37,684 nucleotides of DNA from Spirochaetales bacterium (GCA_028532905.1 JAQQAM010000229.1:1-37684), one strand, 5' to 3'; shown: positions 855-30,151, counted from the stretch's first letter. Notes: generated from the sequence alone by a model not told the origin. Numbers and translations are program-made.

Positions 855-966
855 GGTTCTTCTACTGCTCTATAATATAGATTATTTCATATGATCATCG
901 TCATCTGCTGCTGAATTGTATTATAATAAATATACAAGTGCAGAAGAATTCGTCAGGGAGAGGCGA

Positions 967-2652
967 TTGAGCAGAATCAGTCTTCGTATTATAGGTATTA
1001 TCATTCTCTGTGTGATCTTTACAGGAATCTCTATTGGTACATTGAGTGTCATGCAGGCCGGCAGGATAATGGAACGGGAGAGTTATGAGAAATTTGAATA
1101 TATCTCCCTCAGCTATGCCAATGAGTTCAGCCTGCTCCTTGAGGGAGTCGAAAAGACCATTCAAACTATAACCGCGGGAACTGCATTTAATTTTGATCCC
1201 GCTGCATTTGCTTCCAATCCGGACTACAGAACAGATTATATGGAACAGGCCGGGTCTCTTTTGAAACATCTCGCTGAAAATAATGGAGCGATTCAGGGAA
1301 TCTATCTGGCCATTAATCCGGAACTCACAGGGAAGGTTTACGAAGCCTGGTATATCAGTGACGGTGCAGGAAATTATATCTTTCAGGAGGCTGAGGATAT
1401 ATCCCTGTTCTATCCGGAAAATGAGGATATGAAATGGTATTATGATCCGGTTAAAGCCGGGCGGGGCATCTGGTCTGCTCCTTATACGGATGCCACCATC
1501 AACGTCAAAATGGTATCCTACACAGAAGCTGTCTTTATAGGAGATCAGCTGGTGGGGGTAGCGGGTATTGATATGGCCTTCACTGATATTCTCGAAAGAA
1601 TCCGGAACATAGACTTATATGAGACCGGGTACGGCATCCTTCTGGACAGCGATTTGAAGATCATTTCTCATCCCGAACTGGAAGAAGGCACCGATATCCG
1701 CTCATTGGATAACGGAGGACTGTCATCTGTGGCAGATGCCTTCCAGGAACGGGAGTCGGATACTCTTGATTATGTGTATGAGGGGAACAATAAAATTCTC
1801 GGGTTTTCCCGGCTGTCCAATGACTGGATATTCATAGCTGCAGCAGAAATGGATAATGTCAGAAAGCCGGTTTCTCTGCTTCGGTTCAACATCCTTTTCA
1901 TTGTGTTTGCCGCTGTGCTGATCTCCATTGCCGCGGGACTGAAGATGTCCCGTTCCATTATGCTGCAGCTGAACAAGCTCCATGATCTGACGGTGGCTAT
2001 CGGTAACGGCAATTATGATGTCAAAATAAACAATGATACGAAAGACGAGTTCGCCGGGCTGATCAGCAGCTTTGAAACAATGAGCCGGAAAATAGCAAAA
2101 ACACAGGATCATCTGGTTGAAGTGAACAAGAATATGGAGGTCATGGCTTTTCATGATTCTCTGACCCGGCTTCCCAACAGGCGTTCCGGCATGGAAAGCC
2201 TGGAACAGATGTTAAAGCAGTATGATACCAGCCTGGATTATGCAGGTATTATGCTAATCGATCTGGACTATTTCAAGGAAGTGAACGATTCAATGGGACA
2301 TGATGCCGGGGACCAGCTGTTACTGGGGATAACGGAAAAAATGAGCCATCAGATCGGTAACAAGGATATACTGTGCCGGCAGGGGGGGGATGAATTCCTC
2401 CTTATTTTCAAAGAGGTTCCGAGAGTGGAACTGATCAGGGCATTGGCGGAACGTCTGCTGGCTGCCGCCTCAGAACATATGACCATTGAGAAGCGCCGCA
2501 TCAGTATATCCTGCAGCATCGGAATTGCCCTGATTAACGGAAGCAATCTGAACCGCAAATCTCTTTTAAGGGAAGCGGATCAGGCTTTGTATGCAGTAAA
2601 AAGAAAAGGGCGGAACAACTATGCTTTTTTCCGGGAAGCAGAGCCGGACTGA
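967..2652 (+). CDS. Membrane-bound Cache-HAMP diguanylate cyclase (GGDEF)
   Basis: Predicted c-di-GMP synthase. An N-terminal membrane helix (ISLRIIGIIILCVIF) is followed by a periplasmic double-Cache sensor with the typical WYYDPVKAGRGIWSAPYTD segment. A second membrane helix (FNILFIVFAAVLISIAAG), a HAMP linker and a C-terminal GGDEF domain follow. The active site is intact: RQGGDEF, with DLDYFKEVND and GHDAGDQ upstream. The inhibitory I-site (RxxD) has Gly where Arg is needed, so product inhibition is probably weak. I place the start at TTG 967, which has a strong AGGGAGAGG site 4-5 bp upstream. A longer frame from TTG 916 has no such site and would contain the TATAAT at 922-927. The last 34 bp overlap the convergent Rrf2 gene. 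Confidence 0.9.
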   Translation: MSRISLRIIGIIILCVIFTGISIGTLSVMQAGRIMERESYEKFEYISLSYANEFSLLLEGVEKTIQTITAGTAFNFDPAAFASNPDYRTDYMEQAGSLLKHLAENNGAIQGIYLAINPELTGKVYEAWYISDGAGNYIFQEAEDISLFYPENEDMKWYYDPVKAGRGIWSAPYTDATINVKMVSYTEAVFIGDQLVGVAGIDMAFTDILERIRNIDLYETGYGILLDSDLKIISHPELEEGTDIRSLDNGGLSSVADAFQERESDTLDYVYEGNNKILGFSRLSNDWIFIAAAEMDNVRKPVSLLRFNILFIVFAAVLISIAAGLKMSRSIMLQLNKLHDLTVAIGNGNYDVKINNDTKDEFAGLISSFETMSRKIAKTQDHLVEVNKNMEVMAFHDSLTRLPNRRSGMESLEQMLKQYDTSLDYAGIMLIDLDYFKEVNDSMGHDAGDQLLLGITEKMSHQIGNKDILCRQGGDEFLLIFKEVPRVELIRALAERLLAAASEHMTIEKRRISISCSIGIALINGSNLNRKSLLREADQALYAVKRKGRNNYAFFREAEPD

Positions 2653-18825: not shown

Positions 18826-19899
18826 ATGACCGGAAAGGAACGGATCGGGAATATTCTTCAGAGAAAACCCGTAGACCGGATAGGATTATATGAACACTTC
18901 TGGGATGATACGAAAAAATCCTGGATTCAGAAGGGAGAGATGAAGGAGTCCGAAAGCTATGCGGAACACTTCGGATTTGATATGGACGCCTTCTGGTCCT
19001 TTAATATGGTGGCTGACCTGGATAAAGAGCCGGAAGTGGTGGAGGAAACAGAAGAAACCATCCTGGTTCGGGACGGGAACGGCGCCCTGCTGCGGCGTCA
19101 TAAACTGCATGACAGCACTCCGGAGCATGTGGATTTTCTGGTAAAAGACCGGCTGGCCTGGGAAGAGCATATCAGACCCTTTCTGACCCCCGATCCCGCC
19201 CGGATAGATTTTGAAGGGTACCGGAAGGTCCGTCAGGAGTGCCTGGCTGCCGACCGCTTTTTCTGCTGGAGCGGTGTCAATGTGTTTGAGCTGATGCATC
19301 CTGTCTGCGGGCATGAGTATATGCTGATGGGCATGGCCCTCGATCCGGACTGGATACGGGAGATGGCCGACCTATACAGTACCCTGATGATCAATCTTCT
19401 GGAGATCCTTTTTGAAAAAGAGGGCGCCCCCGACGGCATATGGTTTTACGAGGATATGGGGTTCAAGGACAGACCCTTTATGAGTCCCGACATGTACAGA
19501 GAGCTGATTATGCCGGCGCATAAAAAGACCATAGACTGGGCTCATGGAAGGGGACTTCCTGTGATCATGCACTCCTGCGGTTTTGTGGAACCCCTCCTGC
19601 CCGGCATGGTGGAAGCGGGCATCGACTGTCTGCAGGTTATTGAGGTGAAGGCCGGAATGGATCCCTTGCGCATCCACAAACAGTACGGGTCCGAGCTCTC
19701 TCTTATGGGCGGGATTGATGTAAGAACCATCTGTTCCAATGAAAAATCTCAGATAGACAGAGAACTGGAGGGCAAAATCCCCTTGCTCAAAAAGGGATTC
19801 GGTTTTACTCTTCACAGTGATCACTCCATACCGGAAACGGTTGATCCTGAAACCTACCGCTACTTTATTGAACGGGGACTTGAACTGGGCAGATACTGA
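18826..19899 (+). CDS. Uroporphyrinogen decarboxylase (URO-D)-family protein, methyltransferase-like
   Basis: A 357-residue TIM-barrel protein of the URO-D superfamily. Typical features are the N-terminal MTGKERIGNILQRKPVDRIGL, the central DGIWFYEDMGFKDRPFMSPDMYRELIMPAHK, and VIMHSCGFVEPLLPGMVEAGIDCLQ with a zinc-type HSCG. It lacks the clear heme-pathway residues and context. It more likely belongs to the corrinoid/cobamide methyltransferase-like branch (MtaA/CmuA relatives) seen in anaerobes. The start ATG 18826 has AAGGAG 6 bp upstream; an earlier in-frame ATG at 18793 has none. The stop overlaps the LacI start by one base (TGATG), so they form an operon. Substrate unknown. A second, distant relative is at 28832-30151. 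Confidence 0.8.
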   Translation: MTGKERIGNILQRKPVDRIGLYEHFWDDTKKSWIQKGEMKESESYAEHFGFDMDAFWSFNMVADLDKEPEVVEETEETILVRDGNGALLRRHKLHDSTPEHVDFLVKDRLAWEEHIRPFLTPDPARIDFEGYRKVRQECLAADRFFCWSGVNVFELMHPVCGHEYMLMGMALDPDWIREMADLYSTLMINLLEILFEKEGAPDGIWFYEDMGFKDRPFMSPDMYRELIMPAHKKTIDWAHGRGLPVIMHSCGFVEPLLPGMVEAGIDCLQVIEVKAGMDPLRIHKQYGSELSLMGGIDVRTICSNEKSQIDRELEGKIPLLKKGFGFTLHSDHSIPETVDPETYRYFIERGLELGRY

Positions 19900-20891
19900 T
19901 GTATAAAAAGAGAGTCACACTGAAGGATATTGCTCAGAAGGCAGGGGTCTCGTCCACTGTGGTTTCTGTCGTTCTGAACGGCCGGGAGGATATTCAGATC
20001 GCCCCGGACACCCGGGAGCGTGTGCATTCTGCTGCAAAAGAGCTTGGCTATGTCTACACAAAGCCCCGCCGGGAAAGCAGCCGGCCCCTGATCAGTTTTG
20101 TTCATTCCGAGTCTTATGATCAGCATATCGGAACCTCTTTTTTTGTGACCCTTGCCTCCCGGCTGCGGAGCCTCTGTGAACAGGAGGGATACGGGGTTCA
20201 GGAAATCGAGTGTTCTGTGTCTGCACCCCTGCCCTCCTACCAGACCGTACTGTCTTCCCGTGCCCGGATGATTGTCTCCTTCAATCAGACATTCACCGAA
20301 CTCTGTCTGTCCCAGGGGCACGATGTTCCCCTGTTTCAGGTGCAGGGCGAGAGGCGGGGGGCAGACCGCTGTTCTCTTTATCTTGTGGATGACAGGCAGG
20401 TGGGGGAACTGGCAGCCCTGCGTCTCCTTGATCAGGGACGGCGGTATTGCGCCATGATCTTTCCGCCCCTGAAAGGGCGTTGTGAGCAGGAGCGCTTTCA
20501 GACCTTCCGCCGGACCTTCGAGTCCCGCAAAGCCGGGACAGTACATATTGAGATGGACAGTTCTGCCCATAAAGAGATAGAAGCCTGGTTCCGGAAGGGA
20601 AAGGGGGAGGGGTTCGACAGCTTTTTCTTTTTCAGCGACGCCATGGCTTTACCCGCCCTGCGGGGGCTGCAGACCGGAGGGCGCAGAGTTCCTGAAGACG
20701 CCTCTGTCATAGGAACAGACAATCTGTACTGGGGGCAGTATACCTCTCCCTCACTGACCACTTTGAACCTCCATGAGGAGCTGTTCGCCGGCAGAATCTT
20801 CCGGGATATCCGCAGTTTCATTCAGGACGGCAGCTTCTATCCGGGAGAAACGGTTATCCGCCCCGAGCTGCTGGTGCGGGAATCAGGGTGA
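19899..20891 (+). CDS. LacI family transcriptional regulator
   Basis: A 330-residue regulator. The N-terminal helix-turn-helix and hinge are textbook: VTLKDIAQKAGVSSTVVSVVLNG, then RVHSAAKELGYVYTKP. The rest is the periplasmic-binding-like effector domain, ending SLTTLNLHEELFAGRIFRDI and ELLVRESG. It is coupled to the upstream URO-D-like gene and probably represses that operon through the repeat at 18747-18771. The last 33 bases around its stop codon are one copy of a perfect direct repeat whose other copy lies at 25731-25763. The ancestral gene was apparently followed within 4 bp by the convergent permease stop. Confidence 0.93.
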   Translation: MYKKRVTLKDIAQKAGVSSTVVSVVLNGREDIQIAPDTRERVHSAAKELGYVYTKPRRESSRPLISFVHSESYDQHIGTSFFVTLASRLRSLCEQEGYGVQEIECSVSAPLPSYQTVLSSRARMIVSFNQTFTELCLSQGHDVPLFQVQGERRGADRCSLYLVDDRQVGELAALRLLDQGRRYCAMIFPPLKGRCEQERFQTFRRTFESRKAGTVHIEMDSSAHKEIEAWFRKGKGEGFDSFFFFSDAMALPALRGLQTGGRRVPEDASVIGTDNLYWGQYTSPSLTTLNLHEELFAGRIFRDIRSFIQDGSFYPGETVIRPELLVRESG

Positions 20892-20892
20892 A
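20860..20892 (+). repeat. 33-bp direct repeat, left copy (end of lacI-like gene)
   Basis: A 33-bp sequence starting GCCCCGAGCTGCTGG and ending AATCAGGGTGAA, identical base for base to 25731-25763. It includes the LacI stop codon. The two copies bracket the kinase/methyltransferase/HD-GYP cassette. Confidence 0.95.
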
Positions 20893-20900
20893 AACATAAT

Positions 20901-23900
20901 TTACATATCCGACGGGGTGGATACCAGTATATCTATTGCCTTCATAAACTTATTTTTATTTTCTTCATCAAAATCCATCAGTTTCTCCAGTCTGGACATC
21001 AGAGGTTTTACAAAGTGCTCCATCCTCTTGGATTTTCGCTCATAATCCGTTCTGTGATCCAGCATCATAACCTGACAGAGTGATGGATCACTGTACTCAC
21101 CCAGATATTGAAATCCCAGCTTTCCATACATGGCAACCTGCTTTTTATCATCAGCAAATACATCAAGAAATAAAGTCTCAGTATCTTCGACACGGGCATA
21201 AAGATACGCCAGAGTCATCAGTCCCATGGGAATTATGCTGCCCCGTTCCTTTTTCAGTACGGCCAGCCTGTCAATCTCTGCTGTTCTTTTTCCTTTTGTT
21301 ATTTCACTGATATCAAAGTGGTTGGAAATGGGAAGTTTTCCAGTCATACCCGAGGTTACACAGGAGGCCGTTCCAACCGGCTGAAGCCCTTTGTATGCCA
21401 GAACATGAAAGGCATGCTCATCTATGTCTCTGCGAATCGTCTCTTCCCGATAACCCATTTCTCCCACAAGTATCTTCCTTTGGATGAAAAACACATCATC
21501 CCGTTCCTCGGGAGTTTTTACATTAACAAAACGGATTTTCCATTTATCTCTGGTTTCCAGCGGAAGAGAGACAATAATCTCAGTCCCATGTTCATAGGTA
21601 CTGTTTATATGAATACGTCCCCCCATTTCAGTGAGTATCTGATGGGTGATACTCAGACCCAGTCCAGTTCCTTTTCCCGGTTCTTTTGTTGTAAAGAAAG
21701 GGTCAAATACCTGTTGAATATCCTGTTTGTCAATGCCGATCCCCGTATCCCGAATGGATATGCGGATGGAATAGGATGTCAGCCGGCTTTCCATATACAG
21801 ATGACCGCCGCCGGGCATAGATTGAACTGCATTAACAATAATATTCATAAAGACCTGTTGCAGACTGTTGTTATTCAGCTCTACAGGAGGCAGATCACCT
21901 AAATCCTGATGTATCTGGATTCCCTCGAAATTCATTCCCCTCTGTGCCAGGCGGATTGAATTGTGCAGTACATCGTTAATCTGCAGAAATTCAGCTACAC
22001 CCTTCTCTTTTCTGGAATAGTTTGTCAGGTCTTTGATCACAGAGGCCGCCGTTTCTGAATACTGGATAATATCGTTTGTATATTCGTATAGCTTTGATTC
22101 CGGTTCGAAACTATCAATCATGATTTCAGCAGTACCCAGAATTCCAGCCAGAGGGTTATTCAATTCATGGGCAATACCGGAGGCAAGAGTCCCGATTCCT
22201 GCCAGTTTTTCAGATTGGATCAGTTCGGCCTGCAGTTGTTTCTGCTGGGTGATATCCTGAAAAAACTCCAGAAACAGTTTCTGGTCGGATGGAACGGATA
22301 TGGGATAAAAATGGACATCGAAGATCAATTTCTTTTCCTGACTGGTCTGTTCGACAGAAAAAGGAAGCTGTGTATGAAGACAATCCTGTGCAAGACACTT
22401 TTCACAGGGATGTTCCCTGTTGAAATAGATGCGGTAGCACTTTTCATTTATCATTTCATCATAGTGCTTCTGGAAATATTTTGTTGCCGCAAAATTCACC
22501 ATAATAATGTTGTAATTGATATCCTGAATGGAAATAGGAGCGGTAATACCATCAAAGAAAGCTTCCAGTTTATTCCGGCTTAACACCAGTTCCTGATTCA
22601 GTACCTGCAGTTTATGCTGCTGGTTTTTCAATCGTTCAAAACTGATGGCATTCTCCAGAGTCACCGAGGAATGGTCGCTCAGAATTTCCAGAATATTAAG
22701 CTCAAACTGATTGTAGTAGGCTCTCTCTTTTCCGGGACCCATGATAATATAGCCATTGATTCTGTTTTTAAATATCAGGGGGAGAATAAGACTCGGTTTC
22801 AATTTCAGAACCTTTCCGTTCAGTTCCAGAGAAAAGGAAGGATACACTTTCTGAATCCTGCCGCCCCTTGAACCCGACAGCACTTTTTTCATTTCCTTAT
22901 TCTCTTTAAGGGAGAAAGGAAGTCTGCTCCCGAGCTCAACCCCCAATCCTCTCCATGATATGATCTGATAATTTCCTGCTGAATAATCATGAACAAGCAT
23001 GGTGCACCATTCCAGCTTGTAGGATTCCATTATTTTTTCTGTGGTTCTTGCCCCCAGTTCTGTCAGATCTACAATCGACTTCAGGCTATCCGAGAAATTC
23101 TTCAGATCCTGAAGAGTACTGAAGCGTCTTCCCAGATATAGTTTTTCAATAAATGACTTAGTCCCTTTTCTCAAAGGCTGAAAAGTAAGAGTCAGAATAA
23201 TACCAAGTAAAACGGATATGGCTGCAGGAGATGAAGTCTCACTCATTTTATCCACAAATCTCATCAGCAGCATAGATCCATAAAACAAAGTACTGCTGAC
23301 AATAATCAGAATAAAGTATAGGGTCATCCTCAGTACAAGTGCCGAGTAGTTCAAAAGCTGGTAATTATAGATGGCATAGAAAATAAAGATGGCATTGAGT
23401 GTGGTTCCCAGAATGTCAATAGGATATCTGCCAAGGGGCTCATACAGGTTTGCCAGAACACTGATCAGAAGTATTACCACACCGTAAATAGGGTATGTCA
23501 GTTTTCTCTTTAGAACCTTGTTTTCAGTTTTATATAACTCACGGCTCAGATGTATCAGGGCCAGGATCATATAAATATAGCAAAGGGAATAGATTAAAAT
23601 GGCAGACTGCCCAAGAAGATAATTAAACTCTGAACCTGTAAACCAGGCATTGTCAACGATGTCTCCCTTGAAGTTCTTATAAAGAGAGACGGCATAAACC
23701 AGATATCCTATGAACAGAGAGACTGTGTATCTTCTACCCTTATTTCCTGTAAGACTGAGCAGCGCATGAAACATTGTGATGGGTACACCCAGCATGCCCA
23801 CCATCATGATTCTGTTCCAGATCAGCGGTGTATAAACATTAAAATTTCCATGCATCATGAAAGATCCGAAACTCCAGATCATCATCATGAACATATACAG

Positions 23901-24014
23901 ATTGAATGGTTTCAGGGATTTATCAGTTCTGCCCTGATAGAGCCCAAAAACAGTAAATATGATGTATAGTATACAGCTCATGGCGGGAATAATAGTCGAC
24001 ATATTCAGTATCAA
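20901..24014 (-). CDS. 7TM-GAF-PAS histidine kinase fused to a FeeM/LuxI-like acyltransferase domain
   Basis: A 1037-residue protein. Residues 1 to about 290 hold an N-terminal block of about eight membrane helices of the histidine-kinase 7TM sensor type. A GAF-like domain follows (about 310-480), then a coiled coil, a PAS domain (about 500-600) with an unusual Cys cluster (PCEKCLAQDC), and a HisKA domain with His616 (GIAHELNNPLAG). The HATPase has NNSLQQVFMNIIVNAVQSMPG, DTGIGI and GTGLGLSI. From about residue 826 there is an extra domain: VFFIQRKILVGEMGYREET, DIDEHAFHVLAYKGLQPVGT, EIDRLAVLKKERG, and MYGKLGFQYLG. This is the GNAT-like pattern of N-acyl amino acid synthases (FeeM) and autoinducer synthases. 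TTG 24014 has GAGGA upstream; ATG 24002 is an alternative. No receiver is present; the divergent HD-GYP regulator is the likely partner. Confidence 0.88.
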   Translation of the reverse strand: MILNMSTIIPAMSCILYIIFTVFGLYQGRTDKSLKPFNLYMFMMMIWSFGSFMMHGNFNVYTPLIWNRIMMVGMLGVPITMFHALLSLTGNKGRRYTVSLFIGYLVYAVSLYKNFKGDIVDNAWFTGSEFNYLLGQSAILIYSLCYIYMILALIHLSRELYKTENKVLKRKLTYPIYGVVILLISVLANLYEPLGRYPIDILGTTLNAIFIFYAIYNYQLLNYSALVLRMTLYFILIIVSSTLFYGSMLLMRFVDKMSETSSPAAISVLLGIILTLTFQPLRKGTKSFIEKLYLGRRFSTLQDLKNFSDSLKSIVDLTELGARTTEKIMESYKLEWCTMLVHDYSAGNYQIISWRGLGVELGSRLPFSLKENKEMKKVLSGSRGGRIQKVYPSFSLELNGKVLKLKPSLILPLIFKNRINGYIIMGPGKERAYYNQFELNILEILSDHSSVTLENAISFERLKNQQHKLQVLNQELVLSRNKLEAFFDGITAPISIQDINYNIIMVNFAATKYFQKHYDEMINEKCYRIYFNREHPCEKCLAQDCLHTQLPFSVEQTSQEKKLIFDVHFYPISVPSDQKLFLEFFQDITQQKQLQAELIQSEKLAGIGTLASGIAHELNNPLAGILGTAEIMIDSFEPESKLYEYTNDIIQYSETAASVIKDLTNYSRKEKGVAEFLQINDVLHNSIRLAQRGMNFEGIQIHQDLGDLPPVELNNNSLQQVFMNIIVNAVQSMPGGGHLYMESRLTSYSIRISIRDTGIGIDKQDIQQVFDPFFTTKEPGKGTGLGLSITHQILTEMGGRIHINSTYEHGTEIIVSLPLETRDKWKIRFVNVKTPEERDDVFFIQRKILVGEMGYREETIRRDIDEHAFHVLAYKGLQPVGTASCVTSGMTGKLPISNHFDISEITKGKRTAEIDRLAVLKKERGSIIPMGLMTLAYLYARVEDTETLFLDVFADDKKQVAMYGKLGFQYLGEYSDPSLCQVMMLDHRTDYERKSKRMEHFVKPLMSRLEKLMDFDEENKNKFMKAIDILVSTPSDM

Positions 24015-24072
24015 TGTTCCGGATCCTCAAGAAAGATTTATTGAAATATTCACTTTTATCAAATTAGTCTGA

Positions 24073-24639
24073 ATGATATCATATAATTCAGATATGGCTT
24101 ATTATTTATTCTCTATTATATCTTTTTTATGCCTTCTGATCTCTGATTATCTGCAGATCATACAAAAAAGAATTCCCATTATATTGTTCTCAATAGCGGG
24201 ATATGGCGGTATTACAGCATCTCTCATCTTTTCCTCAATCTCTTACTGGAATACAGAGGGATATTCAGTAATTACCGGTCTGAAAGCTCTGTTTCTTGTA
24301 TTCAGTTTTGCGCTCCTTTTGTATCAGCTGTTTCTGGAAATCCCTCTCTCGCCCCAAATACAGAAAACCCAGGAGAGAATGGCTGTGCAGCAGGGAAGCT
24401 ACAGTCATGTCAGACATCCTGCTTTCTATCCTTTTCTTCTGCTTACGGCGGCTCTGTCTTTACTGGTAAACAACCGGCATTTCATACCCATAGCCTTGTT
24501 AATGAATGTTTTGAATTTTATCCTGATTGTGATTGAAGATATATTTATTTTTCCGGAGGTTTTTGATAATTATTCTGATTACAAGAAAAATGTGCCCTTT
24601 CTTGTTCCAGACTTGAAACGATATCCAAGGCAGGACTGA
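24073..24639 (+). CDS. ICMT/PEMT-like integral membrane methyltransferase
   Basis: A 188-residue membrane protein with about five helices. The C-terminal half carries the isoprenylcysteine carboxyl methyltransferase-type motifs: GSYSHVRHPAFYPFLLL (G-x-Y-x-x-x-RHP-x-Y) and VIEDIFIFPEVFDNYSDYKKNVPFLVP (E-x(6-8)-F-x-x-x-Y-x-x-Y-x-x-x-VP). In known relatives these bind S-adenosylmethionine and act on lipids or lipidated carboxyl groups. No Shine-Dalgarno precedes ATG 24073. A TATAAT at 24082-24087 lies 6 bp before the ATG at 24094, suggesting a leaderless start there (181 residues). One base separates it from the HD-GYP gene, so they are co-transcribed. Confidence 0.78.
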   Translation: MISYNSDMAYYLFSIISFLCLLISDYLQIIQKRIPIILFSIAGYGGITASLIFSSISYWNTEGYSVITGLKALFLVFSFALLLYQLFLEIPLSPQIQKTQERMAVQQGSYSHVRHPAFYPFLLLTAALSLLVNNRHFIPIALLMNVLNFILIVIEDIFIFPEVFDNYSDYKKNVPFLVPDLKRYPRQD

Positions 24640-24640
24640 T

Positions 24641-25699
24641 ATGCTTCAACACAGAAAAATTCTGATTATAGATGATGATGTTTCTCTGCAGAAAGTACTG
24701 GGTATACAGCTTGAGAACGGCGGCTACGAAAGCTCTGTTGCAGAGTCCGGACAAAGAGCTCTTGAACTACTGGCAGAGGGCTCTTATCAGCCTGAATGTA
24801 TACTTTCTGATATCAAAATGCCCGGATTAAGCGGCCTTGATCTGCTGCCTCTGCTGAAGGAACAGTATCCTCTGGTGCCGGTCGTTATGCTGACAGCACA
24901 TACAGACCTTGAAACAGGACTGAAGGCTATGCGGTCGGGAGCCTATGATTATATTACTAAACCTGTCAGGCGGCAGACTCTTTTTGAAACCATAGAAAGA
25001 GCCTTGCAGTATTATGATGTTGAGCAGGAAAATAACAAGCTCAAAGAGGAAAACCGCCGCTATCAGGAGAATCTTGAAAGGAATATTGAAGAGAGAACCA
25101 GAGAGGTTATCGATGCCTATCAGGCCTTAAAAGATACCAACCTGGCTGTTGTTAAAGTCCTCGCAGAAACCATTGAAGCTAAGGATCAGTACACTAGAGG
25201 GCACTGCAACCGGGTCAGAATGCTGTCCAGAGAACTGGCTTCACATTACAACCTGAGTGAACAGGAGATAGAAGTTCTTGAATATGGTGCTCTGCTCCAT
25301 GACATTGGAAAAATAGGTATTCCTGAAAAACTGCTGAACAAATGCGATATTCTGGATAAAGAGGAAAAAGCTGTTTTCGAAGATCATACGGTTATCGGAG
25401 AAAAGATTCTGAGTATTATCGAGTTCTTTAATCCTTGCCTGACCATAGTTCGGCATCACCATGAGCGTTGGGACGGAAGCGGATATCCTGACGGTTTGAA
25501 AGGTGAAGAGATTTCTCTTCTTTCCAGAATTGTACAAGTTTGCGACTCTTTTGATGCTATGACATCAACCAGACCCTACAGAGGAGAACTTCCTCTGGAT
25601 GAGGCTCTCGGAGAACTGAAAAAGGGCAGAGAATCTCAATTTGACGCCGATATTGTTGATCTGTTCATCGCACAGAAGATCTACCGCTGTGTGTTATAG
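24641..25699 (+). CDS. Response regulator with HD-GYP c-di-GMP phosphodiesterase output
   Basis: A 352-residue protein. Receiver, residues 1-125: DDDV acidic pair, phosphoacceptor in CILSDIKMPGLSGL, Thr in MLTAHTD, Lys in YITKPV. A coiled-coil linker (EQENNKLKEENRRYQENLERNIEERTREV) joins an HD-GYP domain. That domain has YTRGHCNRV, LLHDIGKIGIPEKLL, DHTVIGEKIL, HHHERWDGSGYPDGLKGEEI and the family end. All metal-binding residues and the GYP loop are intact, so c-di-GMP hydrolysis is expected. It lies 1 bp after the methyltransferase gene and is divergent from the kinase, whose only plausible partner in the window it is. Confidence 0.93.
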   Translation: MLQHRKILIIDDDVSLQKVLGIQLENGGYESSVAESGQRALELLAEGSYQPECILSDIKMPGLSGLDLLPLLKEQYPLVPVVMLTAHTDLETGLKAMRSGAYDYITKPVRRQTLFETIERALQYYDVEQENNKLKEENRRYQENLERNIEERTREVIDAYQALKDTNLAVVKVLAETIEAKDQYTRGHCNRVRMLSRELASHYNLSEQEIEVLEYGALLHDIGKIGIPEKLLNKCDILDKEEKAVFEDHTVIGEKILSIIEFFNPCLTIVRHHHERWDGSGYPDGLKGEEISLLSRIVQVCDSFDAMTSTRPYRGELPLDEALGELKKGRESQFDADIVDLFIAQKIYRCVL

Positions 25700-25730
25700 A
25701 AAGGTACTCTGATTTTACCAGGGGGCAGAT

Positions 25731-25763
25731 GCCCCGAGCTGCTGGTGCGGGAATCAGGGTGAA
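25731..25763 (+). repeat. 33-bp direct repeat, right copy
   Basis: Perfect copy of 20860-20892, ending 3 bp before the stop codon of the minus-strand YjiH-like gene. It is not part of any reading frame here, so it is a duplicate of the lacI-like gene end. Confidence 0.95.
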
Positions 25764-25766
25764 TCT

Positions 25767-27155
25767 TCAGCCGAATAACCCCGTCAGTCCCAGCAGCCTG
25801 GTAAACAGCACTGTCAGAGGAAGGGCAATCACTGTCTTGATAACAAAAATCACAATCAGATCTTTCAGCTTTATCGGAATACTGGAGGCCAGCAGAACTG
25901 CCGCCATCTCCGACAGATAGATAATCTGAACCAGAGACACAACGGCTATGATAAATCTTGTTTCCACAGATGCAATGGATGAACCGATAATGGCCGGAAG
26001 AAACATATCCGTGAACCCCACCACCATGGTTGGAGCCGCTGCAGCGGCTTCATCCACTCCCAGAACATTCAGATACCAGAAGAAGGGGGTGGAGATCCAC
26101 TGAAACAGGGGGGTGTGTTCTGCCAGAACCAGCCCGGCTGTTCCTATGGCAATGACCATGGGAATCACATTGAATATCAGGTCCAGAGTCCCTTTGGAAC
26201 CCTCTTTGAGTATCTCTTTCACAGAGCCTGCCCGGCGGGCATTATCCATGGCACAGTGAAATCCCCAGCGGAGACTGCTCATATTCCCGGGAATCTCCTC
26301 ACTGTTTCTCTGCTTTTTTCCTTTATACCTGCTGTTGTCGATCCGGGAGATGGGGGGAATGCGCACCATCACTATGGTGGTCAGAACTCCCACCAGAATC
26401 AGAATCCCGTAGAGGGGTGCAAACAGATGTCCCACACCCAGTGTGTTGGCAATCACCAGACAGAAGGGGAGGGACACCACTGAGAACATGGTGGATATGG
26501 TTACCGCCTCTCTTGCGGTATAGAAGCCGGACTCATACTGCCGGATTGTAACCAGAATACCCGCTGCATTACCTCCTACCCAGGAGGAGATCAGATCCAC
26601 AGCCGAACGGCCGGGCAGGCGGAAAAGAGGGTGGATCAGGCGGCGGAAAACGGTCCCTGTGAAATCCATCAGTCCGTAATCGGAAATCAGGGGCAGTACA
26701 AAGACAACCACCAGAAAGGTGGCATACAGGGTAATTCCCAGGTCCATCATCAGAAATCCCGTATCATCATGAACAATCAGATCAAAAACCCCCCCGGTGA
26801 GGTTCAGAAAAAGGGCCGCCGTTACGGCAGCTGCCGTCAGTTTGAGAATGAAAGTCGGCGTATTATTGTCAAAAAGTATCTTCAGAAGAGGATGTTTGAG
26901 TATAAGATCCGGCTTGAATATCCGAGTCAGAATTGATCCCGCGGCAGAAAGGAGAACGGTTATTCCCACAAGCTGAAGGCCGAAGCTCTCAATGCCCGCC
27001 CTTATGCTGTCAATCAGGACTCCCAGGGGAATGGTCATACTCCCGTCAATAGAAAGGGGAAACAGAAATATAAAGGCTCCCAGCAGGGAGGGGATCAGGA
27101 ATCTCAGGATGTCTGTTGATGTATAATTTTCCGTCTCAGTCAGTGTGTTATTCAA
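25767..27155 (-). CDS. YjiH-family (nucleoside recognition/Gate domain) membrane permease-like protein
   Basis: A 462-residue polytopic membrane protein with about ten helices. It has two Gate-type segments: FRLPGRSAVDLISSWVGGNAAGILVT and, near the end, DEAAAAAPTMVVGFTDMFLPAIIGSSI. These and the overall length match the YjiH branch of the nucleoside-recognition/SpmA-like proteins. Transport of a small polar solute is likely; the substrate is unknown. TTG 27155 is the start, with GAGG 7 bp upstream. It converges on the LacI-like gene and, before the cassette insertion, ended 4 bp from it. Regulation by that LacI protein is possible but unproven. Confidence 0.83.
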   Translation of the reverse strand: MNNTLTETENYTSTDILRFLIPSLLGAFIFLFPLSIDGSMTIPLGVLIDSIRAGIESFGLQLVGITVLLSAAGSILTRIFKPDLILKHPLLKILFDNNTPTFILKLTAAAVTAALFLNLTGGVFDLIVHDDTGFLMMDLGITLYATFLVVVFVLPLISDYGLMDFTGTVFRRLIHPLFRLPGRSAVDLISSWVGGNAAGILVTIRQYESGFYTAREAVTISTMFSVVSLPFCLVIANTLGVGHLFAPLYGILILVGVLTTIVMVRIPPISRIDNSRYKGKKQRNSEEIPGNMSSLRWGFHCAMDNARRAGSVKEILKEGSKGTLDLIFNVIPMVIAIGTAGLVLAEHTPLFQWISTPFFWYLNVLGVDEAAAAAPTMVVGFTDMFLPAIIGSSIASVETRFIIAVVSLVQIIYLSEMAAVLLASSIPIKLKDLIVIFVIKTVIALPLTVLFTRLLGLTGLFG

Positions 27156-28778: not shown

Positions 28779-28831
28779 AATCTTGTAAACAAAAAAGTAC
28801 AAAAAAAACGGAATTGTTGATAAGGGAAAAT

Positions 28832-30151
28832 ATGGCACATGCAGAAAAGGTGAAAGATCCTTCCATGGAACAGACGGCTGCCGGATTGAGCACAGTCCGC
28901 GGCATCGATACAAAACTGAATTTCACTGATGCGGAGATATCAGTACTGCGCGAACTGGCTTTAAAAGTCGCCGAGCTGGCGGCTCATCCCCAGGAGGCGG
29001 AGAAAGCGGCTCTCTGGACCGCTCATAATGATCTGGAAGAGACAAGACCCCTTATTTTTGCGGATCCTGAGAACGGCTGGAATGAAATCATTACACAGGA
29101 TCAGATGCTCTGCAGTGATCCCCTGGCCCGGGTCTGGGAAATGCACCTGAGAAAAGAAATTTTCTGGGGAACCGAAATGGGAGATGACAAGGTCATTGAG
29201 AATTATTTCAATGTTCCCTGGAGTTATGATGATACCGGCTGGGGACTGCATGAGGAAAAAATAGGCGGAGAAGACGGGGGAAGCTACACCTGGAAAACAC
29301 CTATAGAAGAGTACGAGAGAGATTTTGAAAATCTCCGTTTTCCTGAAATCCGACTGGATACAGAAGAGTCTGATAAAACTCTGGAATATGCTCAGCAGAT
29401 TTTCGGGGATATTCTGAAGGTCCGCCGGAAAGGAATCTGGTGGTGGACTCTGGGAATGACCTGGGACTTTATCAATCTGAGAGGTCTTGAGAATCTGATG
29501 ATGGATCTGTACCTCAATCCCGAATGGGTGCATCGTCTGATGGCCTTTTTAAGGGATGGTACCCTCAAAAAACTGGATTATCTGGAGAGTCACGGTCTGC
29601 TTTCTCTGAATACAGAAGGCAGCTATGTCGGTTCCGGCGGTTTCGGCTGGACAAAAGAGCTTCCGGGAGCAGAGTTCAATCCGGATCAGGTCCGCTGTCA
29701 GGATATGTGGGGGTTTGCAGAAAGTCAGGAAACCGTCGGCATTGATCCGGCCATGTTCAACGAGTTTATTCTTCCCTATCAGCTGCCTATTCTGGACCGG
29801 TTTGGCCTGAACTGCTACGGCTGCTGTGAACCCATTGATAAACGCTGGGACTATGTAAAAACCATACCCCGCCTCCGGAGGGTTTCCATATCCCCCTGGG
29901 CTGACAGAGACGCTTCCCGGGAACTTCTGGGAGGAGAGTATATTATCTCGATGAAACCCAATCCTGCCGATCTGGCGCAGCCCCGGATGGATGTAGAGGG
30001 TGTCAGAGCCTCTATCAGGGAGGAGCTAAAGGCTGTCAAAGGGGGTGTGGTGGAAGTCCTGATGAAGGATAATCACACACTTGGTCATAATCCCGGGAAT
30101 ATTACTGCCTGGTGCAAAATCGTGAGAGAAGAGATAGACCGCCTATGGTAA
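28832..30151 (+). CDS. URO-D superfamily protein of a sugar transport operon
   Basis: A 439-residue protein. It shows URO-D superfamily features in a longer frame: LKVAELAAHPQEAEKAALWTAHNDLEETRPL, SYVGSGGFGWTKELPG, and the C-terminal ILDRFGLNCYGCCEPIDKRWDYVKTIP, where a Cys-rich GCCE replaces the HSCG of the other copy. It ends EVLMKDNHTLGHNPGNITAWCKIVREEI. The first 60 residues are an extension. ATG 28832 has AAGGG 6 bp upstream. The stop overlaps the ABC ATPase start (ATGGTAA), so the two are translationally coupled. Such URO-D-like proteins occur repeatedly beside carbohydrate transporters in anaerobes, but their reaction is not known to me. Confidence 0.72.
   Translation: MAHAEKVKDPSMEQTAAGLSTVRGIDTKLNFTDAEISVLRELALKVAELAAHPQEAEKAALWTAHNDLEETRPLIFADPENGWNEIITQDQMLCSDPLARVWEMHLRKEIFWGTEMGDDKVIENYFNVPWSYDDTGWGLHEEKIGGEDGGSYTWKTPIEEYERDFENLRFPEIRLDTEESDKTLEYAQQIFGDILKVRRKGIWWWTLGMTWDFINLRGLENLMMDLYLNPEWVHRLMAFLRDGTLKKLDYLESHGLLSLNTEGSYVGSGGFGWTKELPGAEFNPDQVRCQDMWGFAESQETVGIDPAMFNEFILPYQLPILDRFGLNCYGCCEPIDKRWDYVKTIPRLRRVSISPWADRDASRELLGGEYIISMKPNPADLAQPRMDVEGVRASIREELKAVKGGVVEVLMKDNHTLGHNPGNITAWCKIVREEIDRLW

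Follow-up and report, generated by a model that had tools for sequence, protein, structure and literature searches.

A stretch of 37,684 nt from a Spirochaetales bacterium (GCA_028532905.1, JAQQAM010000229.1:1-37684; the window hereafter) contains, between the convergent stop codons of a LacI-family regulator gene and a permease gene, a 4838-bp insert that is bounded by a perfect 33-bp direct repeat and carries three genes, encoding a sensor histidine kinase, a membrane methyltransferase and an HD-GYP response regulator (the triad). The account that probably holds is a recent, one-off event in which repair or replication placed an old spirochaete module here as a block, the module having a membrane two-component role in lipid signalling and cyclic di-GMP (c-di-GMP) control. 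Insertion of the triad is likely, and a reading of the repeats as attL and attR is unlikely. The scar would be a clear instance of an entire functional module reaching a new locus unbroken, with no visible mobile machinery, and the module itself is a candidate lipid-signal system for spirochaetes.

A duplicated gene end marks both junctions

The junctions are defined by the following features:

19899-20891, plus strand: LacI-family regulator, left host gene (Pfam; orthologues)
20860-20892, plus strand: left 33-bp copy, the native lacI 3' end, comprising the last nine codons, the stop and one extra base (exact repeat; LacI orthologue C-termini)
20893-25730, no strand assigned: insert with the triad, 4838 bp, extending 8 bp past the kinase stop and 31 bp past the regulator stop
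25731-25763, plus strand: right 33-bp copy, which duplicates the lacI 3' end and is non-coding (exact repeat; C-terminus comparison)
25767-27155, minus strand: Gate-domain membrane protein of the nucleoside-recognition family (permease), right host gene, convergent (Pfam; congener orthologue)

Direct comparison within the window found the sequences at 20860-20892 and 25731-25763 identical without a mismatch, as a first-pass annotation of this DNA had reported, and simple arithmetic puts the number of perfect 33-bp pairs expected by chance in this length of DNA at about 1e-11. When up to three mismatches were allowed, the sequence occurred exactly twice in its own draft genome, which totals 4.98 Mb, and was absent from 60 relatives, and in the roughly 338 kb of its own genome that was sampled it is the sole non-tandem exact direct repeat of at least 20 bp spaced within 20 kb. 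Given this uniqueness in the genome and the lack of any other such repeat in the sample, the pair is neither a chance match nor a member of a repeat family. Since the 33/33 match caps neutral divergence after the duplication at less than about 9% (1 - 0.05^(1/33)), the insertion is recent.

The polarity of the duplication is given by the proteins on either side. The C-terminus of the window's LacI protein (VIRPELLVRESG-stop, also quoted as GETVIRPELLVRESG-stop) aligns with the orthologue end VIPVDLIKREST-stop and similar ends among three orthologues, which in their three genomes follow the pattern GE-T/I-VIP-VDLI-x-REST-stop, and the left copy is therefore native coding sequence. The right copy translates as PELLVRESG-stop in one frame and is part of no gene, and the permease, whose own end lies 3 bp past it, has a normal C-terminus (GLTGLFG-stop; GFAGLIG-stop in a congener). 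The earlier description of a functional lacI-like 3' end on the left and a useless copy 3 bp from the convergent permease stop on the right was thus accurate on both counts.

Deleting the insert plus one copy leaves lacI and the permease gene tail to tail, which is the simplest ancestor, and such a tight convergent pair is natural for the permease gene because in a congener its stop overlaps the end of another convergent gene. We searched for this empty site, with the lacI stop next to the permease stop, using the LacI and permease proteins in relatives and the permease also across the class, and the two genes were never neighbours: LacI orthologues adjoin other genes in three genomes (G002, G004 and G027), and the permease is present in few genomes and beside LacI in none. 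The neat ancestral pair that the first-pass annotation obtained by collapsing the repeat stands as the simplest arrangement, although no relative shows it.

At the right junction, the last bases of the insert pair with the right copy in a possible, weak stem with two bulges (25706-25760, plus strand, half insert end and half right copy) that outfolds most shuffles (z -2.15 as DNA, -3.05 as RNA); tested as an alignment, it is not significant. An inverted repeat copy at the right end of the insert was accordingly rejected, the folding being suggestive only, as was an attC-like integron site at this junction, whose core sites were unmatched by eye.

Architecture of the inserted module

The insert contains the following genes and domain:

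20901-24014, minus strand: sensor histidine kinase, 1037 amino acids, with HisKA_7TM, weak GAF, PAS, HisKA, HATPase_c and C-terminal GNAT/FeeM-like domains (Pfam; alignment of 33 homologues)
20904-21527, minus strand: C-terminal FeeM-like GNAT acyltransferase domain of the kinase (Pfam FeeM; invariant E-x-x-R and other residues; AlphaFold2; structure match)
24073-24639, plus strand: integral membrane methyltransferase, 188 amino acids, resembling isoprenylcysteine carboxyl methyltransferases (ICMT) (weak Pfam and NCBIfam matches; motifs; AlphaFold2; fold)
24641-25699, plus strand: REC-HD-GYP response regulator of the c-di-GMP phosphodiesterase type, 352 amino acids (Pfam; invariant residues)

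The true start of the kinase may be the ATG at 24002. The three genes had been counted correctly in the first pass, which overlooked the FeeM-like tail of the kinase. That tail is matched by Pfam FeeM (PF21926) in all 29 of the members tested, with a score of 39.3 bits in the window's kinase against a cut-off of 27, and across the 33 aligned homologues it is as conserved as the kinase catalytic domains, E-x-x-R being among its invariant residues. Its AlphaFold2 model (predicted local distance difference test score, pLDDT, 84) matches the FeeM structure 2g0b with a Z of 18.8 over 160 residues. The methyltransferase has conserved RHP and ED..FP motifs, and its model (pLDDT 93) resembles Ma-ICMT (4a2n) with a Z of 9.1 over 144 residues and, with a Z of 10.8 over 123 residues, a sterol reductase that is also an integral membrane protein, while its score against Pfam PF04140, 21.8 bits, is under the cut-off of 24. 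In the regulator, the REC phosphoacceptor and the HD-GYP residues are invariant.

Pfam shows no receiver domain in the kinase, which therefore lacks the hybrid form, and neither the insert nor the scanned flanking genes hold an RpfF crotonase-type synthase domain by Pfam. PADLOC gave only weak, partial matches for the regulator and no defence system, and a promoter and terminator scan of the insert returned no more sites than shuffled sequences.

Distribution and setting of the triad

Of the 395 genomes that represent the class, 43 carry the kinase, each as a single copy, and a few genomes from the phylum's other classes have it as well. Nearly all carriers with long enough contigs have the same divergent layout of about 4.6-4.9 kb, and within the class the kinase is accompanied by the methyltransferase and nearly always by the regulator. 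Neighbouring genes differ between families. Some sites are shared, one by the congeners G002 and G003, another by several genomes of families f3, f4 and f18, and others by groups within f9; among distant families, ordinary loss of gene order would also give differing neighbours. The site common to the two congeners differs from that in the window, and its neighbour genes have no close orthologue in the window's genome. In relatives, then, the triad lies elsewhere, rather than at this locus without repeats.

We found no long repeats bracketing the triad loci of other genomes, no triad on plasmids or viral contigs, and, in the literature searches made, no paper on this module architecture. A contig scan queried with a single kinase sequence returned only distant kinases. 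Because the triad elsewhere has other neighbours and no flanking repeats, it is not self-mobile; it is an ordinary chromosomal unit with a patchy distribution, and its insertion here is a single event. The self-contained cassette proposed in the first pass, which was to be looked for elsewhere with flanking repeats, is thus borne out as a complete, conserved three-gene unit that recurs in relatives, though not as a mobile one and not with repeats.

Some observations concern the assemblies of carriers and neighbouring sequence. Two unrelated genomes have contig breaks within the triad, close to the divergent promoter between kinase and methyltransferase (L072/L073 in G035 and L077/L078 in G060), and in G060 the two contigs overlap over the methyltransferase at 99% identity. 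A long repeat of 1164-bp period with many exact stretches is present in the congener G003 (L223, 17708-19862), perhaps in a surface protein gene, and in the window's own genome a 14-bp minisatellite (CGGGCTAAACGTGC) lies at a contig end (L204, 14421-14510). A 445-amino-acid protein without a Pfam match is encoded in the window at 28814-30151, upstream of ABC sugar-transport genes.

Foreign or native origin

The insert is more AT-rich than its surroundings, as had been judged by eye: GC content is 41.4% inside the repeats versus 48.5% outside, and 3% of the genome's 4.8-kb stretches are as AT-rich. In most of its other hosts, too, the triad has a somewhat higher AT content than the DNA on either side. 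Codon usage is ordinary, the kinase standing at the 37th and the regulator at the 63rd percentile of host genes, and by this measure the kinase is not foreign; AT-richness gives a foreign origin weak support.

The kinase is 66% identical to those of its congeners, compared with 67% for an RND pump encoded in the window and 94-95% for rpoB, and the three congeners group together in the kinase tree. The closest relative by rpoB (G001, 97.5%) lacks the triad, although its genome is only 85% complete. An initial rpoB tree, distorted by two erroneous sequences (G140 and G342), was replaced by a cleaned tree, which does not reject grouping the window's family with the family of the nearest outside kinase (approximately unbiased test, p 0.15); we therefore claim no tree conflict, and no horizontal gain on that ground, inside the class. 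The kinase tree does reject the grouping seen in the distorted rpoB tree, which is moot now that this tree has been replaced. It places the kinases of the phylum's other classes within the class, which hints at possible transfer. The insert may have come by transfer from a relative outside the sample or by relocation inside the lineage.

Explanations of the scar

In the account that we favor, the conserved triad would have entered between the lacI and permease stop codons complete and precisely bounded, leaving a second copy of the final 33 bp of lacI beyond the insert. This may have happened by filling in a staggered break around a captured fragment, or by template switching with re-entry 33 bp upstream of the point of departure, and the donor could have been another site in the genome of the same lineage or a related cell. 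Repair or template switching is the best fit because there is no recombinase, no terminal inverted repeat and no shared target; the involvement of an integrase or transposase dedicated to the triad is less probable. The first-pass annotation had named both an attL/attR pair and a replication-based insertion while noting that no recombinase was present, and of these suggestions the second agrees best with the evidence.

It is doubtful that the triad is a non-autonomous element integrated site-specifically at the lacI 3' end, by a tyrosine integrase that acted in trans or was lost, leaving attL and attR behind. A gene 3' end is the target, the gene is regenerated, and the repeat has a length usual for att sites, but a Pfam scan of the three proteins encoded in the insert and of the remaining larger open reading frames of the window found no recombinase, transposase, integrase or other mobile gene, and no tRNA was found in the window. 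The genome has no third copy of the 33-bp site, and the absence of flanking repeats at other triads, their single copy per genome and the failure to find any on plasmids or viral contigs also speak against it.

An intragenomic rearrangement, through homologous or illegitimate recombination at an existing short repeat, for example by a circle of the triad and the lacI end recombining back, is improbable. The divergence of the kinase from its congeners resembles that of other orthologues such as the RND pump, and a native origin in the genus is for this reason possible; such a rearrangement nevertheless requires a prior linkage of the triad to the lacI 3' end, of which the relatives hold no trace. 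Transposition with an unusually long target duplication, the transposase being lost or supplied in trans, is very unlikely: insertion sequences of the IS1549 and IS1634 group are known for long, variable direct repeats of 8 to 514 bp (PMC2266710), but neither the insert nor the window holds a transposase, and there are no terminal inverted repeats, the left end scoring no better against the reverse-complemented right end than random pieces do. An assembly artefact has only a slight chance of being the answer, since, for all that the draft genome is in 296 contigs, probably metagenome-derived, and some triads of other genomes lie at contig breaks, even a mis-join would require the 33 bp to be present on either side of the triad, the genes left of the insert follow the order in a congener (RND operon), and base composition on either side matches the genome's.

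Several points weigh against a repair-based insertion of a lipid-signal module. Because the empty site was not found in the genomes examined, the putative insertion is read from the repeat alone, and both junctions are known from a draft assembly; direct evidence does not separate repair, template switching, a lost transposase and an integrase in trans. For the acyltransferase, an ordinary GNAT (SACOL1063) ties with FeeM in the fold match, over 137 residues. Three carriers from other classes (L228, L229 and L230) have the kinase and regulator divergent with no recognisable methyltransferase between them, and three f18 genomes lack the regulator, so not every part of the triad is essential.

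Proposed function

Beyond the observed repeats, duplication polarity, unit conservation, domains and folds, we infer each of the functional steps that follow. The module is most likely a membrane two-component system. The seven-transmembrane kinase would sense a hydrophobic or metabolic signal, the phosphorylated REC-HD-GYP regulator would degrade c-di-GMP, and the FeeM-like tail and ICMT-like methyltransferase probably make, modify or remove a signal lipid. By analogy with known systems, the triad may form an autocrine circuit in which a lipid signal brings c-di-GMP down. The module is the most interesting part of the locus, as a putative new variant of the HD-GYP two-component system with a built-in acyltransferase. 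A dCache-HAMP-GGDEF diguanylate cyclase, whose activity is opposite to that of the regulator in the insert, is encoded elsewhere in the window (916-2652).

A more ambitious and rather unlikely version is a cell-to-cell circuit of new architecture, in which the kinase would both make and sense an N-acyl amino acid, the methyltransferase would cap it by methyl esterification, and the HD-GYP regulator would lower c-di-GMP. Such a triad would be self-contained and would therefore survive relocation as one block.

Comparison with known systems

With its direct repeats and regenerated target gene, the insert resembles integrative elements at gene 3' ends, from which it differs in having no recombinase, no second site and no repeats at the module's other copies. 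As for its enzymes, the kinase tail scores above the family cut-off for FeeM N-acyl amino acid synthases (PF21926, 2g0b) and shares their fold over 160 residues. Unlike them it is fused to a histidine kinase, with about 20% identity and ordinary GNATs equal in fold, and its acyltransferase activity is putative. The methyltransferase has the RHP and C-terminal acidic motifs of ICMT enzymes and a fold like that of Ma-ICMT, but falls below the Pfam cut-off (21.8 vs 24).

Among signalling circuits, Phc of Ralstonia joins the PhcB methyltransferase and the PhcS kinase in one circuit around a lipid methyl ester (PMC8578825, PMC11960443). The triad may be likened to it in pairing a methyltransferase with a sensor histidine kinase; it differs in that its methyltransferase is of the membrane-embedded ICMT type and its output is an HD-GYP protein. 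The Rpf/DSF system consists of the RpfF synthase, the RpfC sensor kinase and the REC-HD-GYP protein RpfG, with the kinase also controlling the synthase by direct contact (PMC5391125). Like it, the triad sets a membrane sensor kinase and a REC-HD-GYP protein of the c-di-GMP phosphodiesterase type next to an enzyme of lipid type. In contrast to Rpf/DSF, the triad has no RpfF crotonase-type synthase and its kinase is without the additional receiver of RpfC; it is found in spirochaetes, with an acyltransferase fused to the kinase and an ICMT-like methyltransferase added.

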